Notes under the pieces: model-generated
Told to the model about the DNA's origin: nothing
The model's database searches: none
Seen by the model: only the letters and a program-made list of their open reading frames with translations
From: a virus
Virus record (IMG/VR): IMGVR_UViG_3300007540_000167
Location: 1-20,371 of that record
Reading direction: 5' to 3' (one strand)
DNA length: 20,371 bases
Translations under genes and position numbers: made by a program
Part shown: piece after piece, positions 1 through 20,371 of the stretch
How positions within the stretch are numbered: position 1 is the stretch's first letter
How the letters are laid out: each line of letters opens with the position of its first letter

Positions 1-853
1 CTGCTTCGCTTATTAATCCTAGCGCCTGCTCTTTTGCGCCTATCTCGCGTCCAACTTCACGCGCAGGAGCTGACACCTGACGCCCTCTAATTTTACCGCC
101 TATTGCGCCAACAGTCGGCCCCAGTGGACCGAGCACTGCGCCTGCTCCGGCTCCAAATAGTGCTTGCTGTCTAGCAGCTTCCTCACGCTCTTGAGGTGTA
201 GCCCCTTCGCCGTAACCGTATATTGCACCTTCCAAAGCCCCAACGCCGGCCCCAAGGCCAGTTCCTGCGGCTACACGGCTTAGTAAAGAAGTGCCAAGCG
301 GAGTGACAGATATTGCAGGAGCAGCTATAGCCGCAGGAATAGCGGTCGCCACGCCTACGCCTGCTCTTGATATTCCAGTTGTAACTGGCGCTACTATCTC
401 TCGAGCCTCTTGCGCCGCTCTTGTTGCCTGCGCTGCCTCTGGGCTAAACTGCCCTATGATTTCGTCAATATATGAGCCAACAAATGGTACGCCTTTTATC
501 GCGCTTGCAGCTCTTGCCGGTAACTCACCTACTTGGCTAATAATATCTTCAGCCATAGACGTTTTGTAAACTTCTCCGGCTTTACCGCCTGCGGCTCGTA
601 TTTGGGATATACGCGCAGGATCTGATGTAGTGTATCCGTCAGTAACGTAAGTCTCTTGACCGGTTTGTGTGCTTTTTAAAATGCGCCCACCGTCATCAAA
701 CTGTTCGACTATCTCAGCGCCAGTTGGTGCAGGCTTGAGCCGTTGCTCGAGCGCCATACCCTCTTCAATTAATGCCTCTGCCGCCTCTATGTCTCCTGCT
801 TCGTAAGCTGCCTTTGCGGCTTTACGATAATCTTCTACAGTGTATTCTGCCAT
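1..853 (-). CDS. Internal virion / ejection-type protein, 3' end cut by window edge
   Basis: Partial gene: 284 codons are visible from the ATG at 853-851, and the frame stays open to base 1. The N-terminus (MAEYTVEDYRKAAKAAYEAG) is charged and helical. From about residue 135 come Gly/Ala-rich segments with GxxxG-like spacing (for example GTGLGAGVGALEGAIYGYG and LFGAGAGAVLGPLGP), suited to membrane insertion or helix packing. The N-terminal DYRKAA plus GDIEAAEALI pattern and a 'GVPFVGSYIDEIIG' stretch are, from memory, typical of large phage proteins injected with DNA. Its place as the last of three internal-type genes fits that. The start follows the upstream stop by one base (TAA-A-ATG). A C-terminal enzyme domain such as a muramidase could lie outside the window. 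The role is inferred. Confidence 0.7.
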   Translation of the reverse strand, partial: MAEYTVEDYRKAAKAAYEAGDIEAAEALIEEGMALEQRLKPAPTGAEIVEQFDDGGRILKSTQTGQETYVTDGYTTSDPARISQIRAAGGKAGEVYKTSMAEDIISQVGELPARAASAIKGVPFVGSYIDEIIGQFSPEAAQATRAAQEAREIVAPVTTGISRAGVGVATAIPAAIAAPAISVTPLGTSLLSRVAAGTGLGAGVGALEGAIYGYGEGATPQEREEAARQQALFGAGAGAVLGPLGPTVGAIGGKIRGRQVSAPAREVGREIGAKEQALGLISEA

Positions 854-854
854 T

Positions 855-2048
855 TTAACCGCCTTGAAGCCATTTTTGTTTTCTTTCGTTTAAAGATCCT
901 GCCGCGCCAGTTGTTGGCTCGTAAAAAGTGTCTGGCGGAATATTTTCTCCCATAGATCTACGTCTGGCAATATCAGTATAAAATCTAAGCTCGGCCAGTG
1001 CGGCTCTAAAATCTTCTGGGCTTTGAGTTGTAAGCAACCTAGCCCCTGCTTCTTCAGCTTTCTTACCTTCTAACTCTGTAATTTGGCCTCCGCCTTTTAG
1101 GCTTTCAAATGCATTTAAGAACACGCCACCTTTAATTTTGTCTAAAACACCTCTGGCTACTTGCGCCTGTGGAAGCAATGCCCCAAGCCCTAAAGTGTCA
1201 AGTGCGCCGGTTGCTATGCCTTTTACACCTACAATCTGATCTAAGCCTTCAAGACTTAACAAGTTATCAATATCTGCTATCATCGCCGTGGCTTTTGAAG
1301 CTCCTGACATGTTGGACTCTTGCTTCTCAACATTGCCAAGAAGAATGTTTGCAGTGGGGGCGTCTATAAGTTGGCCAGTGAGGGCGCTCATAATTGCTTC
1401 ACGCTGTTGCGTAGGACTGCCTGCCGCGCCTGCGCCGCCCATACCCATGCCACCCATAAGATTACCCATAAGCTGACGCCTAGCTGCTACCGCTTGGCGC
1501 TTACGCTCCATGTCGGCACGCTCTCTAAAGCCTGTTAGTGTTCCAGAAAATGCTGTGCCCTCTTTCCCTTGCAGCGCCATGCCTGCATCCTTAATTGCGG
1601 CAAATGCAAGCATTGTTCTTTGATTTTTGCTCAAATTTTCAAACGGGTCTTGTGATATAGATTGATCAAGCAAGCTCATCATGGCGCTTGGCGCGGTTAC
1701 GGTTGTTGCTTTTTCTGGCATTGTCGGAGGAGTTGCCCGATCTGCAAGTCTTATATTTCCCCCTATGCCAAGTTCCGTTAAGGCATCTGTCGCGATGCCT
1801 TCTGAGCCAACGACTGGTTCGCTTGGCATTGGGCTAGTTAAAATTCTGTCTGCCTGATTAACTACCTTTCCCTCTCCCATAGGCATCGACGGGACACTCA
1901 AGTCCATAGCACCTCTTGCCAACTGCTCTGCCGGAGATCCTGTAGCCATGCTCATCTTCTGCAAGTCTGCCGCCGTAGCTACGTCGCCTGCCATAGCGTC
2001 TATGAGACCAAATCTGTCTATGTCTTCTTGTGTTAGTATATATGCCAT
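855..2048 (-). CDS. Putative internal virion protein (397 aa)
   Basis: The product has 397 residues, no signal peptide and no clear membrane segment. It has a Met/Gly-rich low-complexity stretch at about 193-210 and a conserved-looking C-terminal part with KIKGGVFLNAFESLKGGGQI, TELEGKKAEEAGARL and then SPEDFRAALAEL. In my recollection the 'LKGGGQITE-EGKKA' block is shared by internal or ejection proteins of many marine podoviruses, where it lies among the last structural genes as here. The start is the ATG at 2048-2046, with an AGGAAG ribosome binding site and 9 bases after the previous stop. It probably leaves the capsid with DNA or forms part of the ejection apparatus. That role is inferred from position and the motif. 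Confidence 0.65.
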   Translation of the reverse strand: MAYILTQEDIDRFGLIDAMAGDVATAADLQKMSMATGSPAEQLARGAMDLSVPSMPMGEGKVVNQADRILTSPMPSEPVVGSEGIATDALTELGIGGNIRLADRATPPTMPEKATTVTAPSAMMSLLDQSISQDPFENLSKNQRTMLAFAAIKDAGMALQGKEGTAFSGTLTGFRERADMERKRQAVAARRQLMGNLMGGMGMGGAGAAGSPTQQREAIMSALTGQLIDAPTANILLGNVEKQESNMSGASKATAMIADIDNLLSLEGLDQIVGVKGIATGALDTLGLGALLPQAQVARGVLDKIKGGVFLNAFESLKGGGQITELEGKKAEEAGARLLTTQSPEDFRAALAELRFYTDIARRRSMGENIPPDTFYEPTTGAAGSLNERKQKWLQGG

Positions 2049-2057
2049 TTTAACTTC

Positions 2058-3707
2058 CTACGTTCTTAAAAATGGTAAGTTCATTCCATAAGGCCCAAGC
2101 CCCATACCAATGCTACCTATCGCACCCAACGCAGGCCCGAGCCCACCAGTACGCTGTGTGGTCGTGCCAAGTCCGGCAGGTATACCTGATGCCGCGCCGA
2201 GCAATGCGTTCAAGCCAGTAAGTGGGAAATCTTGCTCTCTGCCAAACTGACCGTATGCAGCGTCTAACTGAGCTTGTTGTAACGCTTGTCCAACTCCCCC
2301 TGCGCCCATCTGAGCTCCGAGGCCGGCTAATTGCTGTTGTAGTTGTCCGCCTGCGGTTCCTAACAAGCCCTGCGCTCCTGCTTGCTGCAATCCGGCAGCA
2401 TCGAATTGGCCGCCAAATGTCGCCGCTTGAGCTGCCTGATCTCTTGCTGCCTGCGCTTGCGCCGCAGCATTTTGAGCCTCGGCAGCCGTAAGCCCTGCTT
2501 GTTGCGTTAAGCCTGCTTGCTGCGCTGCCCGTGCAAAATCTTGTTCGGAAGCCGTAAGGCCGGCAGTTTGCGCAAGACCTGCTTGCGCTTGGGCTCTAGC
2601 CGCTTCTTGCGCCGCCGCAGCCATTGCCGCTTGCTGCTCAAATGCAGCTTGTTGCATTGTGCGTTGATTAAGGGCATCCATAGACTCCAAGCCTGCTTGC
2701 TGCGTAAGCTGCGCTTGCGCCTGCGCCCTAGTATTAAAAGCCGCTTGGTTAGAAAGCGTCGCTTGCTGCTCAAGTTGTGCCTGTTGCCTTGCAAACTCGT
2801 TAGCCGCCTGCATATTGCCTGCTCTGGCTGCTTGATCTCTTGCCGCCGCAGCTTCTCTGGCTTGTTGGCCAAGTGTTTCTGCTTGCAGCTCTTGCTGTGC
2901 CGCCAAGCTGCGTGCTTGCTGCACATTGCCAATGTCAAAACGACCACTAGCTAATGCTTCACTAAACGCTCTTTCACGCTGCGTTGCTGAAAGTTCTCCG
3001 GCTTGTCTTACAGCTTCTCCTGCCAGTATACCCTCTTGAACAGCCTGACGAGATCCACCAAACGCGCCGGCTGCTTCTGCCTCGGCAGCAAGTCTATTAG
3101 ATGCTAATTGCCTTTGCCTTTCAATGTCTTCTTGGCCTGCTTCGATAACTGCTTGAGTGTACGGAGAGAGGTATGGGTCAATATCTGTAGTAGCCAACTT
3201 ATCTACCGCAATCTCGCTTGGGGCTTCGGCTGCCGACACTGCGCCTACTGCTCGCATACGCTCGGCTTCTTTTAGCTGTGCGGCTCTCGCTCGCTCAACT
3301 GGATCAATTTGAGCGCCTTCATATGTGACCATATCGCCAATCGTTGTAGCCGAAGGTAGCATTGTTCTTTCAATAGTGGCTCCGCCGAAAGCTTGAGTAG
3401 GCTGAACTGTGGCTCCGCCATATGTTGTGACCGGAGCTGCGGTTGCCGCCTGCATCGGCGTCATCTGGAAGTCTGCCAAACGCCCGAAAGTTTCTCCTGC
3501 CTGCTCAAACATAGGCGCACCCATACTAAGGGCTCCGTAGCCTTCCATTGCTTGTTGTTGTAATGGCGTTAGTCCTGCAACAAGCTCGCCTTCATATGGG
3601 GTAAACTCTCTACCGGCTATATCTTTAGCGTATGGAAGGACAGTTTCTTCGAGAAACTCTCTTTGAAACTCGGGTAATTTTGTTTCGCTTGTGGTTTTAG
3701 ATCCCAT
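2058..3707 (-). CDS. Ala/Gln-rich internal virion protein (549 aa)
   Basis: The 549-residue product has three regions. The N-terminus (1-150) resembles phage proteins beginning with '...PYAKDIAGREFTPYEG...LTPLQQQA'. Residues about 170-210 contain DPYLSPYTQAVIEAG and the AGAFGGSR motif, which I recall as a hallmark of a marine-phage internal protein family. From about 240 to 460 there is a long Ala/Gln-rich helical region with repeated QQAGL and QAQ units, likely an extended helix or coiled coil. Start and upstream stop share one base (TAATG), with GGAG upstream, so translation is probably coupled to the GNAT-like gene. It is probably a DNA-ejection or capsid-internal protein. Long ORFs in other frames across 2222-2954 are by-products of the low-complexity codons. 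Confidence 0.7.
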   Translation of the reverse strand: MGSKTTSETKLPEFQREFLEETVLPYAKDIAGREFTPYEGELVAGLTPLQQQAMEGYGALSMGAPMFEQAGETFGRLADFQMTPMQAATAAPVTTYGGATVQPTQAFGGATIERTMLPSATTIGDMVTYEGAQIDPVERARAAQLKEAERMRAVGAVSAAEAPSEIAVDKLATTDIDPYLSPYTQAVIEAGQEDIERQRQLASNRLAAEAEAAGAFGGSRQAVQEGILAGEAVRQAGELSATQRERAFSEALASGRFDIGNVQQARSLAAQQELQAETLGQQAREAAAARDQAARAGNMQAANEFARQQAQLEQQATLSNQAAFNTRAQAQAQLTQQAGLESMDALNQRTMQQAAFEQQAAMAAAAQEAARAQAQAGLAQTAGLTASEQDFARAAQQAGLTQQAGLTAAEAQNAAAQAQAARDQAAQAATFGGQFDAAGLQQAGAQGLLGTAGGQLQQQLAGLGAQMGAGGVGQALQQAQLDAAYGQFGREQDFPLTGLNALLGAASGIPAGLGTTTQRTGGLGPALGAIGSIGMGLGPYGMNLPFLRT

Positions 3708-18717: not shown

Positions 18718-18851
18718 TACTTCTTTTTTCCCATCTTACGCTTGGTCGTCGTGCCGTACTGCATTTTCTTTCCGGATTTCTTTGCAGCTTTCTTCGCGGC
18801 TGCCATTCCCTTCTTGCTGTATGAATACTTTTTTCCGCCGACCATAGGCAT
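18717..18851 (-). CDS. Small Lys-rich conserved phage protein (44 aa)
   Basis: This 44-codon gene begins at the ATG at 18851-18849 (MPMVGGKKYSYSKKGMAAAK) and ends TAA at 18719-18717, where the last base is the first of the next ATG. A strong AAGGAGAT lies 5 bases upstream. An alternative ATG two codons later (18845) has longer spacing. Twenty-three of the first 30 residues are Lys, Ala, Gly, Ser or Met. Similar 'MPMVGKKKFPYTKKGMAAAKKAAK' proteins are frequent in marine phage genomes, unassigned. It is the first gene of the structural run after the terminator and candidate promoter upstream. Confidence 0.78.
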   Translation of the reverse strand: MPMVGGKKYSYSKKGMAAAKKAAKKSGKKMQYGTTTKRKMGKKK

Positions 18852-18892
18852 GACAAATCTCCTTAACGGTTAATTTTGGCCAATAATACAGC

Positions 18893-18898
18893 ATTATA
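18893..18898 (-). promoter_or_regulatory. Candidate -10 element for the small-basic-gene run
   Basis: On the minus strand this reads TATAAT, preceded by TG, about 41 bases before the 44-aa gene start. No good -35 hexamer is visible; the matching position falls in the terminator's loop. It could serve as the start of the late operon after the terminator. Confidence is limited by chance occurrence in A+T-rich DNA. Confidence 0.35.
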
Positions 18899-18900
18899 CA

Positions 18901-18930
18901 GAAAAAGAAAGACCGCGCATGTGCGCGGCC
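18901..18930 (-). terminator. Rho-independent terminator, minus strand
   Basis: Minus strand: CCGCGC, 4-base loop, GCGCGG (stem 18913-18918 with 18923-18928), followed by TTTCTTTTTC. It lies after the antisense side of the plus-strand genes and before the small basic genes. It would stop minus-strand transcripts coming from the terminase and separate them from the structural run. No T tract follows on the plus strand. Confidence 0.7.
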
Positions 18931-19030
18931 AGTTGAGGGAGGTCAATACGTATGGAGCGTATCGAGGGTAGTGTATCACAGTTTTCCGATTTTACGAAAA
19001 ACTTTTTTCATTATGGGGGTTGTGTATGTG

Positions 19031-19046
19031 TTAACGTTTTGTTAAC
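19031..19046. promoter_or_regulatory. CtrA-like box TTAA-N7-TTAAC (site 2) with promoter
   Basis: TTAA at 19031-19034, seven bases, TTAAC at 19042-19046; the reverse strand matches as well. TTAACG at 19031-19036 is 17 bases from TATAGA at 19054-19059, a normal -35/-10 distance. AGGAGG (19067-19072) then precedes the ATG at 19078. This is the geometry of a CtrA-activated promoter, as known in alphaproteobacteria, driving the 60-aa gene. Confidence 0.65.
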
Positions 19047-19077
19047 GTATATGTATAGAGAGAATCAGGAGGATCAC

Positions 19078-19260
19078 ATGAAAACCGCAGAACAATATAG
19101 AAAAGAACTTAAAAAAGAATTTCCAAACAGAAGCGACGATAACATCGAAAAGCTTATCAAGAATAGAATGAGAATGGATAAATATTACTTTGATATGTGT
19201 GGATATGTTCCAAGCGAAAAAATGGTTAACACATTAAGTAGCGACGCAATCATAGTTTAA
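19078..19260 (+). CDS. Small plus-strand protein (60 aa), unknown function
   Basis: I choose the ATG at 19078 because AGGAGG lies 5 bases upstream and the promoter ends just before it. The frame is open to 18952, but that would put the promoter inside the gene. The 60 residues begin MKTAEQYRKELKKEFPNRSD and have a Lys-rich helix (NIEKLIKNRMRMDKYYF) then 'MCGYVPSEKMVNTLSSDAIIV'. It has one Cys and no membrane segment. I recognise no family. It is followed after 8 bases by a GC hairpin. With its CtrA-like box it forms a second moron-like unit, analogous to the 52-aa gene. Confidence 0.68.
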   Translation: MKTAEQYRKELKKEFPNRSDDNIEKLIKNRMRMDKYYFDMCGYVPSEKMVNTLSSDAIIV

Positions 19261-19268
19261 CAATCAAC

Positions 19269-19284
19269 GGGGGCGTAAGCCCCC
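19269..19284 (+). terminator. GC hairpin after the 60-aa gene
   Basis: GGGGGC and GCCCCC enclose a GTAA (GNRA-type) loop, 8 bases after the stop. The next bases are TAAACC, so the U tract is missing. It may be a weak terminator or the first element of a larger RNA structure in 19261-19451. Confidence 0.5.
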
Positions 19285-19300
19285 TAAACCAACAACGTAA

Positions 19301-19346
19301 GCCGTGAGTGCGAGGTGTAAACTACATAGAAAACGCCAACCACGGC
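19301..19346 (+). other. Structured intergenic region, middle stem
   Basis: GCCGTG (19301-19306) pairs with CACGGC (19341-19346). Inside, GGTGT (19314-19318) can pair with ACGCC (19333-19337), with one G-U. The sequence AGTGCGAG occurs twice, 40 bases apart (19307-19314, 19347-19354), once after each arm. No ORF or tRNA fits. It may be part of a small RNA, a leader for the HNH gene or a DNA site. Confidence 0.4.
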
Positions 19347-19387
19347 AGTGCGAGCCAAGACCATCCTTTCTTTGGTGATCGCGTAGT

Positions 19388-19429
19388 AGGGGAGCTCGTC
19401 TGGTCAACGAATAAAGGCTCCCCTTCTTT
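19388..19429 (+). terminator. Hairpin with T-rich tail upstream of the HNH gene
   Basis: AGGGGAGC (19388-19395) pairs with GCTCCCCT (19417-19424); an inner TCGT/ACGA stem (19396-19399, 19407-19410) extends it. TTCTTT follows. This is terminator-like on the plus strand and ends 9 bases before the HNH ribosome binding site AAGGAG (19438-19443), so it could close a short RNA or attenuate HNH expression. Confidence 0.5.
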
Positions 19430-19451
19430 AACTAAACAAGGAGAAATTTAA

Positions 19452-20126
19452 ATGGCGATACAATTAAGAAAATGCGCGTGCAGAAATTGCTGCAATTTTT
19501 TTACTTTAAGAAATAGTAATTATTGCTGCACATATTGCAGCCGTCTCGCATCTCGTGAAGCTTGGGACAAAAGAAACCCAAACTATAGAAAGTCTAAAAT
19601 CTACAAAGATTTAATTAATAAAAGAAAACGGGAACGATACAAAAACGACAAAGAATATAAACAAAAAATATTAAACACCCAAAAAGAGCGCACAAAAGAA
19701 TTACGTAAAGACGATAATTTTGTTAAAAAACGAAGAGCTATAAACAACAAGTATAATAGGTCTGAAAAAGGTAAAGAGCGTGCTAAAAAATACATTAAGG
19801 AAAGATCTGAAAAAGATTTAAACTTTAAAATACTAACAAGATTAAGATCTAGACTTTATCACGCAGTTCATAGCCAAAAAACAATTAAAGAAGAAAGCGC
19901 CATCAAAATTTTAGGGTGCTCTACTCAAGAACTAATACCTTACTTAGAGAGTAAATTTTGCAAAGGTATGACGCTAGATAACTACGGCGATTGGCACATT
20001 GACCACATTAAGCCGTGCGCGTCATTCGATCTAACAGATCCAGAGCAACAACGCGACTGCTTTCACTACACAAATCTTCAACCTCTTTGGGCTCAAGACA
20101 ATCAAATTAAATCAGACAAGTACTAA
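19452..20126 (+). CDS. HNH homing-type endonuclease (224 aa)
   Basis: The product has 224 aa. N-terminal CxxC pairs (Cys10/Cys13 and Cys26/Cys29, with Cys8, Cys14, Cys25 nearby) form a likely zinc ribbon. Residues about 40-125 are a Lys/Arg-rich helical linker for DNA. The C-terminus carries GDWHIDHIKPCASFDL (179-194), with His182, Asp184 and His185 of the HNH core, then HYTNLQPLWAQDNQIKSDKY (205-224) with Asn208 and Asn217. This is the standard free-standing phage HNH nuclease arrangement. It is on the plus strand, converges on the terminase gene with a 4-base overlap, is A+T-rich, and follows a structured leader. AAGGAG precedes ATG at normal spacing. Homing or a packaging-related nick are both possible; homing is more likely from the family. 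Confidence 0.85.
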   Translation: MAIQLRKCACRNCCNFFTLRNSNYCCTYCSRLASREAWDKRNPNYRKSKIYKDLINKRKRERYKNDKEYKQKILNTQKERTKELRKDDNFVKKRRAINNKYNRSEKGKERAKKYIKERSEKDLNFKILTRLRSRLYHAVHSQKTIKEESAIKILGCSTQELIPYLESKFCKGMTLDNYGDWHIDHIKPCASFDLTDPEQQRDCFHYTNLQPLWAQDNQIKSDKY

Positions 20127-20371
20127 ACAACGCCCCGAATACTACGCTTCAACGGTCGGCTCCATGCGCCGGCCGAACTCGTTCCAGACGCAAGCGTCGT
20201 GTGGTCATTGGCCAGTGACAAGCAAATGGCGTCGGCTCTGTCGGGCGAGGCAACGCCCCTCTTCTTCATCGCTTCCTTCGACTCAACTTGGATCTTACCT
20301 GCCGAAGTAAAGTGATAGCGTGGCGCAGCAAGCTCCGCATACAACGCATCGTCACGCGGCAAACGCACATC
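20123..20371 (-). CDS. terL: Terminase large subunit, C-terminal fragment
   Basis: This is the last 82 residues of the gene; the frame continues beyond base 20371. The pattern RLPRDDALYAELAAPRYHFT, then AGKIQVESKEAMKKRGVAS and PDRADAICLSLA is the C-terminal nuclease end of phage large terminases. The Asp in 'SPDRADA' is usually one of the metal-binding residues of the RNase H-like nuclease. It cuts concatemeric DNA and, with the ATPase part outside the window, pumps it through the portal. The apparent GTG at 20368 is just an internal codon, not a start. The stop (TAG) overlaps the HNH stop. Confidence 0.88.
   Translation of the reverse strand, partial: DVRLPRDDALYAELAAPRYHFTSAGKIQVESKEAMKKRGVASPDRADAICLSLANDHTTLASGTSSAGAWSRPLKRSIRGVV

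Follow-up and report, generated by a model that had tools for sequence, protein, structure and literature searches.

A new family of structured phage RNA, predicted from covarying helices around a nearly invariant core

A gene-free stretch in the genome of a phage very likely encodes, on its plus strand, one conserved structured RNA (window positions ~19269–19429), as judged from its predicted fold and from covariation. The RNA represents a new family that matches no catalogued Rfam family. The window, i.e. the whole stretch of DNA that was analysed, is a virus record of 20,371 bases from an SU10-like phage (portal PF23899, E 2.4e-211). Its truncated terL has 98% identity to terL relatives over 82 aa; a search with the full-length relative in L036 gave Sinorhizobium phage phiM5 as the best isolate whose host is named (48.7% identity). 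The RNA consists, in order, of a hairpin (P0), a nearly invariant core (GUAAGCCRUGAGUGC...AACCRYGG) in which helix P1 encloses helix P2, a further helix (P3) and a terminator-like hairpin (P4); the positions are given in Table 1. The most likely single reading of its function is that of a regulator acting in trans, which we put forward tentatively.

Table 1. Positions of the RNA elements and neighbouring features in the window.
Feature	Position	Strand	Remark
CtrA-like box TTAA-N7-TTAA	19031..19045	+	candidate promoter element 5' of small ORF and RNA
Small upstream ORF, 60 aa	19078..19260	+	not conserved
P0 hairpin GGGGGC-GUAA-GCCCCC	19269..19284	+	
5' core GUAAGCCGUGAGUGC: unpaired GUAA, P1 5' strand with bulged A (19307), then GC	19297..19311	+	
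P2 helix, 19314-19318 with 19333-19337	19314..19337	+	sequence free, covarying
P1 3' strand ACCACGGC	19339..19346	+	
P3, 19348-19356 with 19374-19384	19348..19384	+	
P4 terminator-like hairpin, arms 19388-19395 and 19417-19424, then UUCUUU	19388..19429	+	
AAGGAG, likely ribosome-binding site of HNH gene	19438..19443	+	outside RNA
HNH-type nuclease gene, 224 aa	19452..20126	+	between RNA and terminase stop
terL 3' end (terminase large subunit)	20123..20371	-	convergent with RNA

The predicted folding energy of the plus strand was −58.2 kcal/mol, compared to −47.4±3.8 kcal/mol for dinucleotide shuffles (z −2.85; 1 of 200 shuffles as good); the fold of the minus strand was unremarkable (z −1.23; 23 of 200 as good). 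The three stems that the initial annotation had placed in the stretch were all recovered, but a fourth (P3) had been missed, and the middle stem is actually composed of two stacked helices, P1 (19301–19309 with 19339–19346) and P2. P3 contains a nearly invariant G-U pair (19354/19376), seen in 62 of the 63 sequences scored, and after this pair a GA bulge (19377–19378); its apical loop contains UCCUUUC (19364–19370). The 8-base direct repeat AGTGCGAG, described as following each arm of the middle stem, is present there but is not conserved as a repeat, because its second copy sits in the covarying 5' strand of P3: it reads AGCGCGAG in L004 and L036, and more distant members have AGCGTGAG or AGCTAGAG there. 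P0 is probably not an essential part of the RNA. Its loop changes from GUAA to UUCG among the close relatives (L005 and L036), and it was set aside as a fixed part given that a hairpin ending near the core occurs in 8 of 21 unrelated groups versus 4.0 expected, which is a weak excess. A clear terminator is lacking in some members located before terS (L206, L225 and L191).

The RNA lies 266 bases downstream of a box that we take to match the CtrA consensus and that would act as a promoter element; each of the six close-clade members keeps this box, which is found within 1.2 kb upstream in 14 of 56 loci overall. The 60-aa ORF yielded no match in Pfam or PHROG, and different small ORFs replace it in L002, L003, L004 and L036. 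The product of the HNH-type gene, whose end overlaps that of terL, matched endonuclease VII in PHROG (phrog_1035, E 1.3e-6) and nothing in Pfam. Separately, a minus-strand hairpin with CCUCCC and a T-rich tail was observed at 18904–18971, 5' of the late genes, and is kept in relatives. It resembles SorX (27.8 bits, gathering cut-off 46.6) and OmrA-B (25.9 bits, gathering cut-off 40), both below the cut-off, and may be another small RNA or the terminator of a leader.

Covariation analysis had been proposed as a check on the structure, and compensatory changes are indeed present. Six close relatives (window included) share the stretch at 92% mean column identity, with paired changes in P2 (GGUGU/ACGCC to GGUGG/CCACC) and in P3 (CCAAG/CUUUGG to CCGGA/UCUGG). 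A covariance model (R1) was built from these six sequences and searched in 100 sources, yielding more distant copies beside terminase genes with E-values from 2e-15 to 2e-5. RNAalifold predicted 31 pairs from 40 matches, 18 of which had two-sided changes. Subsequent values refer to an alignment of 66 matches from 65 sources, which was fitted to the model and thus leans towards it: 98.5% of the 1983 base-pair cells were paired versus 78.5% when shuffled, the covariation was 0.570 versus 0.201 (shuffled) and at most 0.136 (slid), and two-sided changes were found in 23 of the 31 pairs. The latter included all four pairs of P2, seven out of eight in the main helix of P3 and all nine of P4; five of the eight P1 pairs never vary. 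Two further candidates were rejected. GGUGAUC of P3 was dropped by eye as an extended Shine-Dalgarno sequence, as distant members keep only UGA plus the pairing, and a general kissing interaction between the P2 and P3 loops gave no excess (sum 82 versus 82.2 shuffled, 576 of 1000 shuffles as high); CGCCAA/UUGGCG in these loops is common to three clusters of one clade.

The spread of the RNA was assessed with pattern scans for GTAAGCCRTGAGTGC...AACCRYG (spacers of 25–55 and 3–26) and for the variant ...AACCRYGG (spacer of 56–86). These gave 73, 36 (22 new) and 20 viral stretches, amounting to 115 contigs, of which only a few are estimated to be chance matches for an assumed collection of ~5e10 bases. 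Weak entries among the 115 are eight of the L209 type, without a G after the first AACCACG (R3 E 0.074 for L218); L159 (R3 E 0.025) and L165 (1e-3); and several from the third scan (E 0.001 to 0.47; R3 missed L274). L117 was rejected as a chance match inside coding DNA; its positions 1–3250 hold repeated variable-protein ends and a reverse-transcriptase-like ORF, by eye a diversity-generating retroelement. In a genome collection of 84,980 species the first pattern matched 6 stretches. Five of these (L200–L204) were judged to be chance, having the pattern without the following G and a coding look, and L205 (a Desulfamplus MAG; R3 E 5.9e-5) is a plausible member. Among 398 Pseudomonadota genomes R3 was positive in one (E 4e-6), in which the RNA (L252) is directly preceded by an HK97-type capsid gene (PF05065, E 9.1e-39); the short-spacer pattern was found in none. 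Two further searches covered 30 records each, with five in common; every positive record had one strong copy apart from that of L146, which had two. The latter copies (240–420 and 833–1013), both cores with a terminator hairpin, lie on either side of a 122-aa ORF a short distance before a terL gene.

No member was found by R3 in 11 records of named phages, and MW202711, weakly matched by R2 (E 0.005), was no longer matched by R3. Five RNAs and the window region were compared by blastn with 50,697 phage records, which yielded no convincing member; the alignments of the L089 and L227 RNAs with named phages extended over at most about a quarter of the query among the matches listed and were judged to be chance. 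The window region had no blastn match in plasmids. Rfam 15 gave no match at the gathering cut-off in the window and in 18 loci, and at weak E-values no credible overlapping match in window positions 18850–19600, L265 and L256. Searches of the open PMC literature gave no recognisable description of the RNA. Phage-encoded structured RNAs as such are already known. Phage and metagenome DNA also contains GOLLD and ROOL (cf. PMC12286853), structured RNAs whose role is unclear. Both are far larger than the RNA described here, which also lacks an Rfam match.

A second type of the RNA keeps the core and P2 and is devoid of P3. There a covarying pseudoknot appears to take the place of P3, formed by part of the P2 region with the bases that directly follow ..ACGG, e.g. 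GCCGAAC/GUUCGGC in L265, GCCCAGC/GCUGGGC in L262 and GCCCGUC/GACGGGC in L261. A pseudoknot of at least 6 bp was found in 13 of 28 clusters filed as "other" versus 3.9 when shuffled (0 of 500 shuffles had as many), where the 28 include four misfiled first-type clusters and five chance genome hits, one of which counts among the 13. Eleven of the 13 pairings start 1–3 bases into the tail. The first type showed no pseudoknot excess (1 of 20 versus 0.95). The pseudoknotted form could be the compact fold of an RNA that cleaves itself or blocks exonucleases, thereby processing or protecting phage messages, and an invariant core with free stems in intergenic DNA is consistent with such a role. However, no Rfam ribozyme was matched in the window and the loci searched, and the P4 terminator of many members fits the end of a transcript; we consider this explanation unlikely.

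The genes around the RNA bear on the remaining alternatives. At 40 of 80 terminase loci the RNA lies downstream of terL on the opposite strand; at the other 40 close terminases there is no RNA in the bases searched, three of these being unassessable (<210 bases). In 23 of the 40 RNA loci the core starts 114–136 bases from the terL stop and no gene intervenes, and in 17 an HNH-type gene is wedged in. Elsewhere the RNA is located shortly before terS and terL (L191, L206, L225/L226 and L207), 1.7 kb before terL (L213), before a portal gene (L165) or at the end of one (L205), by an RNR gene (L227), near PhoH (L224) or ~1.1 kb after a DnaB gene (L209). Terminase neighbours are frequent, but the RNA is explained by no single gene.

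The putRNA of phage HK022 may be taken as the nearest mechanistic parallel with a known structure, the likeness being one of architecture. According to PMC9378689, putRNA is ~70 nt long, has two stem-loops and needs no protein factor; it shares with the RNA described here the phage origin, two adjacent stem-loops and conserved unpaired positions. A put-like antiterminator, whose two stem-loops ~1 nt apart bind their own RNA polymerase and carry it past terminators, would also suit the location just before terS-terL in L191, L206 and L225. However, putRNA acts in cis just after early promoters, whereas the RNA described here would often end a transcript, with a terminator. The 23 loci without an intervening gene offer nothing to read into, only the convergent terL, and elsewhere the RNA follows capsid or portal genes. 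An RNA that ends transcripts with no gene beyond speaks against antitermination in cis, which we regard as quite improbable.

A packaging RNA, or a packaging/recognition site working with the terminase as had been suggested in the initial annotation, draws on the RNA adjoining terL in the window's group and on terS/terL near the RNA in L191, L206, L207, L225 and L213. As a general role this is not supported: the RNA is elsewhere found by RNR, PhoH, DnaB, portal or capsid genes, and half of the close terminases lack it in the bases searched, as given above. In addition, the common G-U pairs, one of which is nearly invariant, suit RNA better than DNA. No Rfam match to phage pRNA (phi29-type packaging RNA) was obtained in the window or the 18 loci. 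This explanation is very improbable.

The HNH-type genes wedged between RNA and terL are diverse; seven representatives were tested and the remainder assigned by sequence likeness. L051 encodes a NUMOD3/HNH homing endonuclease, L087 and L085 an HNH protein of phrog_2118 and L066 one of phrog_2255; the genes of the window and L070 fall in an endonuclease VII-like group, whose L036 member had a match to the uncharacterised phrog_28061 alone. With four or more kinds of nuclease sharing one slot, the terL stop looks like a hot spot. HNH-type genes were assigned by likeness in 5 of the 37 assessable loci without RNA (L045, L046, L047, L058 and L086; L097, flagged by a pattern, was discarded because its gene does not look HNH-like). 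L033 lacks both the RNA and an HNH-type gene, and no RNA was found in the 27 loci of relatives of the window HNH gene (L006–L032). RNA and nuclease thus come and go separately, and by this comparison the RNA is independent of the HNH gene. A leader controlling the nuclease, as first proposed, or a recognition site for it could be read from the adjoining HNH-type genes (17 of 40 RNA loci versus 5 of 37 without RNA, loci that are related and not independent), but is contradicted as a general cis role by the 23 loci lacking the gene, by HNH-type genes in the slot and elsewhere without RNA and by the several nuclease kinds, and has hardly any probability left. HEARO, the omega RNA of IscB, is also a structured RNA upstream of an HNH nuclease gene. 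The RNA described here is unlike it in having no Rfam match and in persisting without its nuclease; IscB-type proteins have RuvC plus HNH, and the adjacent protein here is 224 aa. In L045 the HIDH motif of the HNH gene is changed to QIDH, and this gene is possibly inactive. At the terL 3' end of the RNA-less L044, L048–L050, L076, L079 and L081 lies a ~400-aa gene starting with MKYGSVCSGVEAATVAWH, by eye a DNA cytosine methyltransferase.

Among the three initial proposals, that of a small RNA fares best, given a conserved RNA with its own terminator and the CtrA-like box upstream. The P3 loop suggests how it could act in trans. A pentamer of ACCUCCUUU was present in the P3 loop of 15 of 24 clusters versus 5.8 for dinucleotide shuffles (0 of 2000) and 3.2 expected in plain shuffles, with the anti-Shine-Dalgarno motif set chosen post hoc, after the P3 loops had been seen. 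For the other loops the numbers were 4 of 24 versus 1.8 (P2) and 4 of 24 versus 0.8 (P4). Four out of five later-seen sequences, all of one clade (L256, L264, L270 and L273), had the motif as CCUCCUUU or GCUCCUU; it was absent from the P3 loop of L252 and from P3 in the largest cluster (21 of 66 rows). The P3 loops of 17 loci paired over at least 6 nt with 80 start regions versus 43.8 for shuffled loops, which is roughly the excess that almost any anti-Shine-Dalgarno string would give. In L172 the loop matches one gene over 10 nt and a second one over 9 nt, and this second gene is matched in L144 as well; covariation of P3 loops with their start-region targets was not demonstrable. Since the motif is absent in the largest cluster and P3 in the second type, pairing with Shine-Dalgarno sequences could account for the action of no more than some members. 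The AbcR1/AbcR2-type sRNAs of alphaproteobacteria (PMC5461406, PMC8844928) act in trans, as proposed for the RNA described here, but they are bacterial and have another fold, and the RNA described here has no Rfam match. An anti-Shine-Dalgarno seed in a loop is a feature of this sRNA group.

It is quite possible, short of an even chance, that the RNA acts in trans through pairing of its P3 loop with ribosome-binding sites. Transcription would yield either the RNA by itself or a longer transcript of the small upstream ORF with the RNA at its 3' end, and would stop at the terminator-like hairpin of the RNA. The P1 core, nearly invariant and the part that the family shares, would be the docking site for a conserved host factor. 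A pyrimidine seed in the apical loop of P3 would pair with Shine-Dalgarno sequences and thereby repress the translation of host or phage messages.

Among the carriers of the core are SU10-like phages and others that have a terS-terL module, as well as ~100-kb contigs with RNR or PhoH genes and a capsid-bearing element in a bacterial genome. Its presence in unrelated phages suggests a common host target. One core, in two-hairpin and pseudoknotted forms, may plausibly, if still tentatively, have spread as a general phage effector that works via a universal host machine, with the ribosome, RNA polymerase or an RNase as candidates. The RNA provides a means to annotate intergenic phage DNA and a defined target for study.
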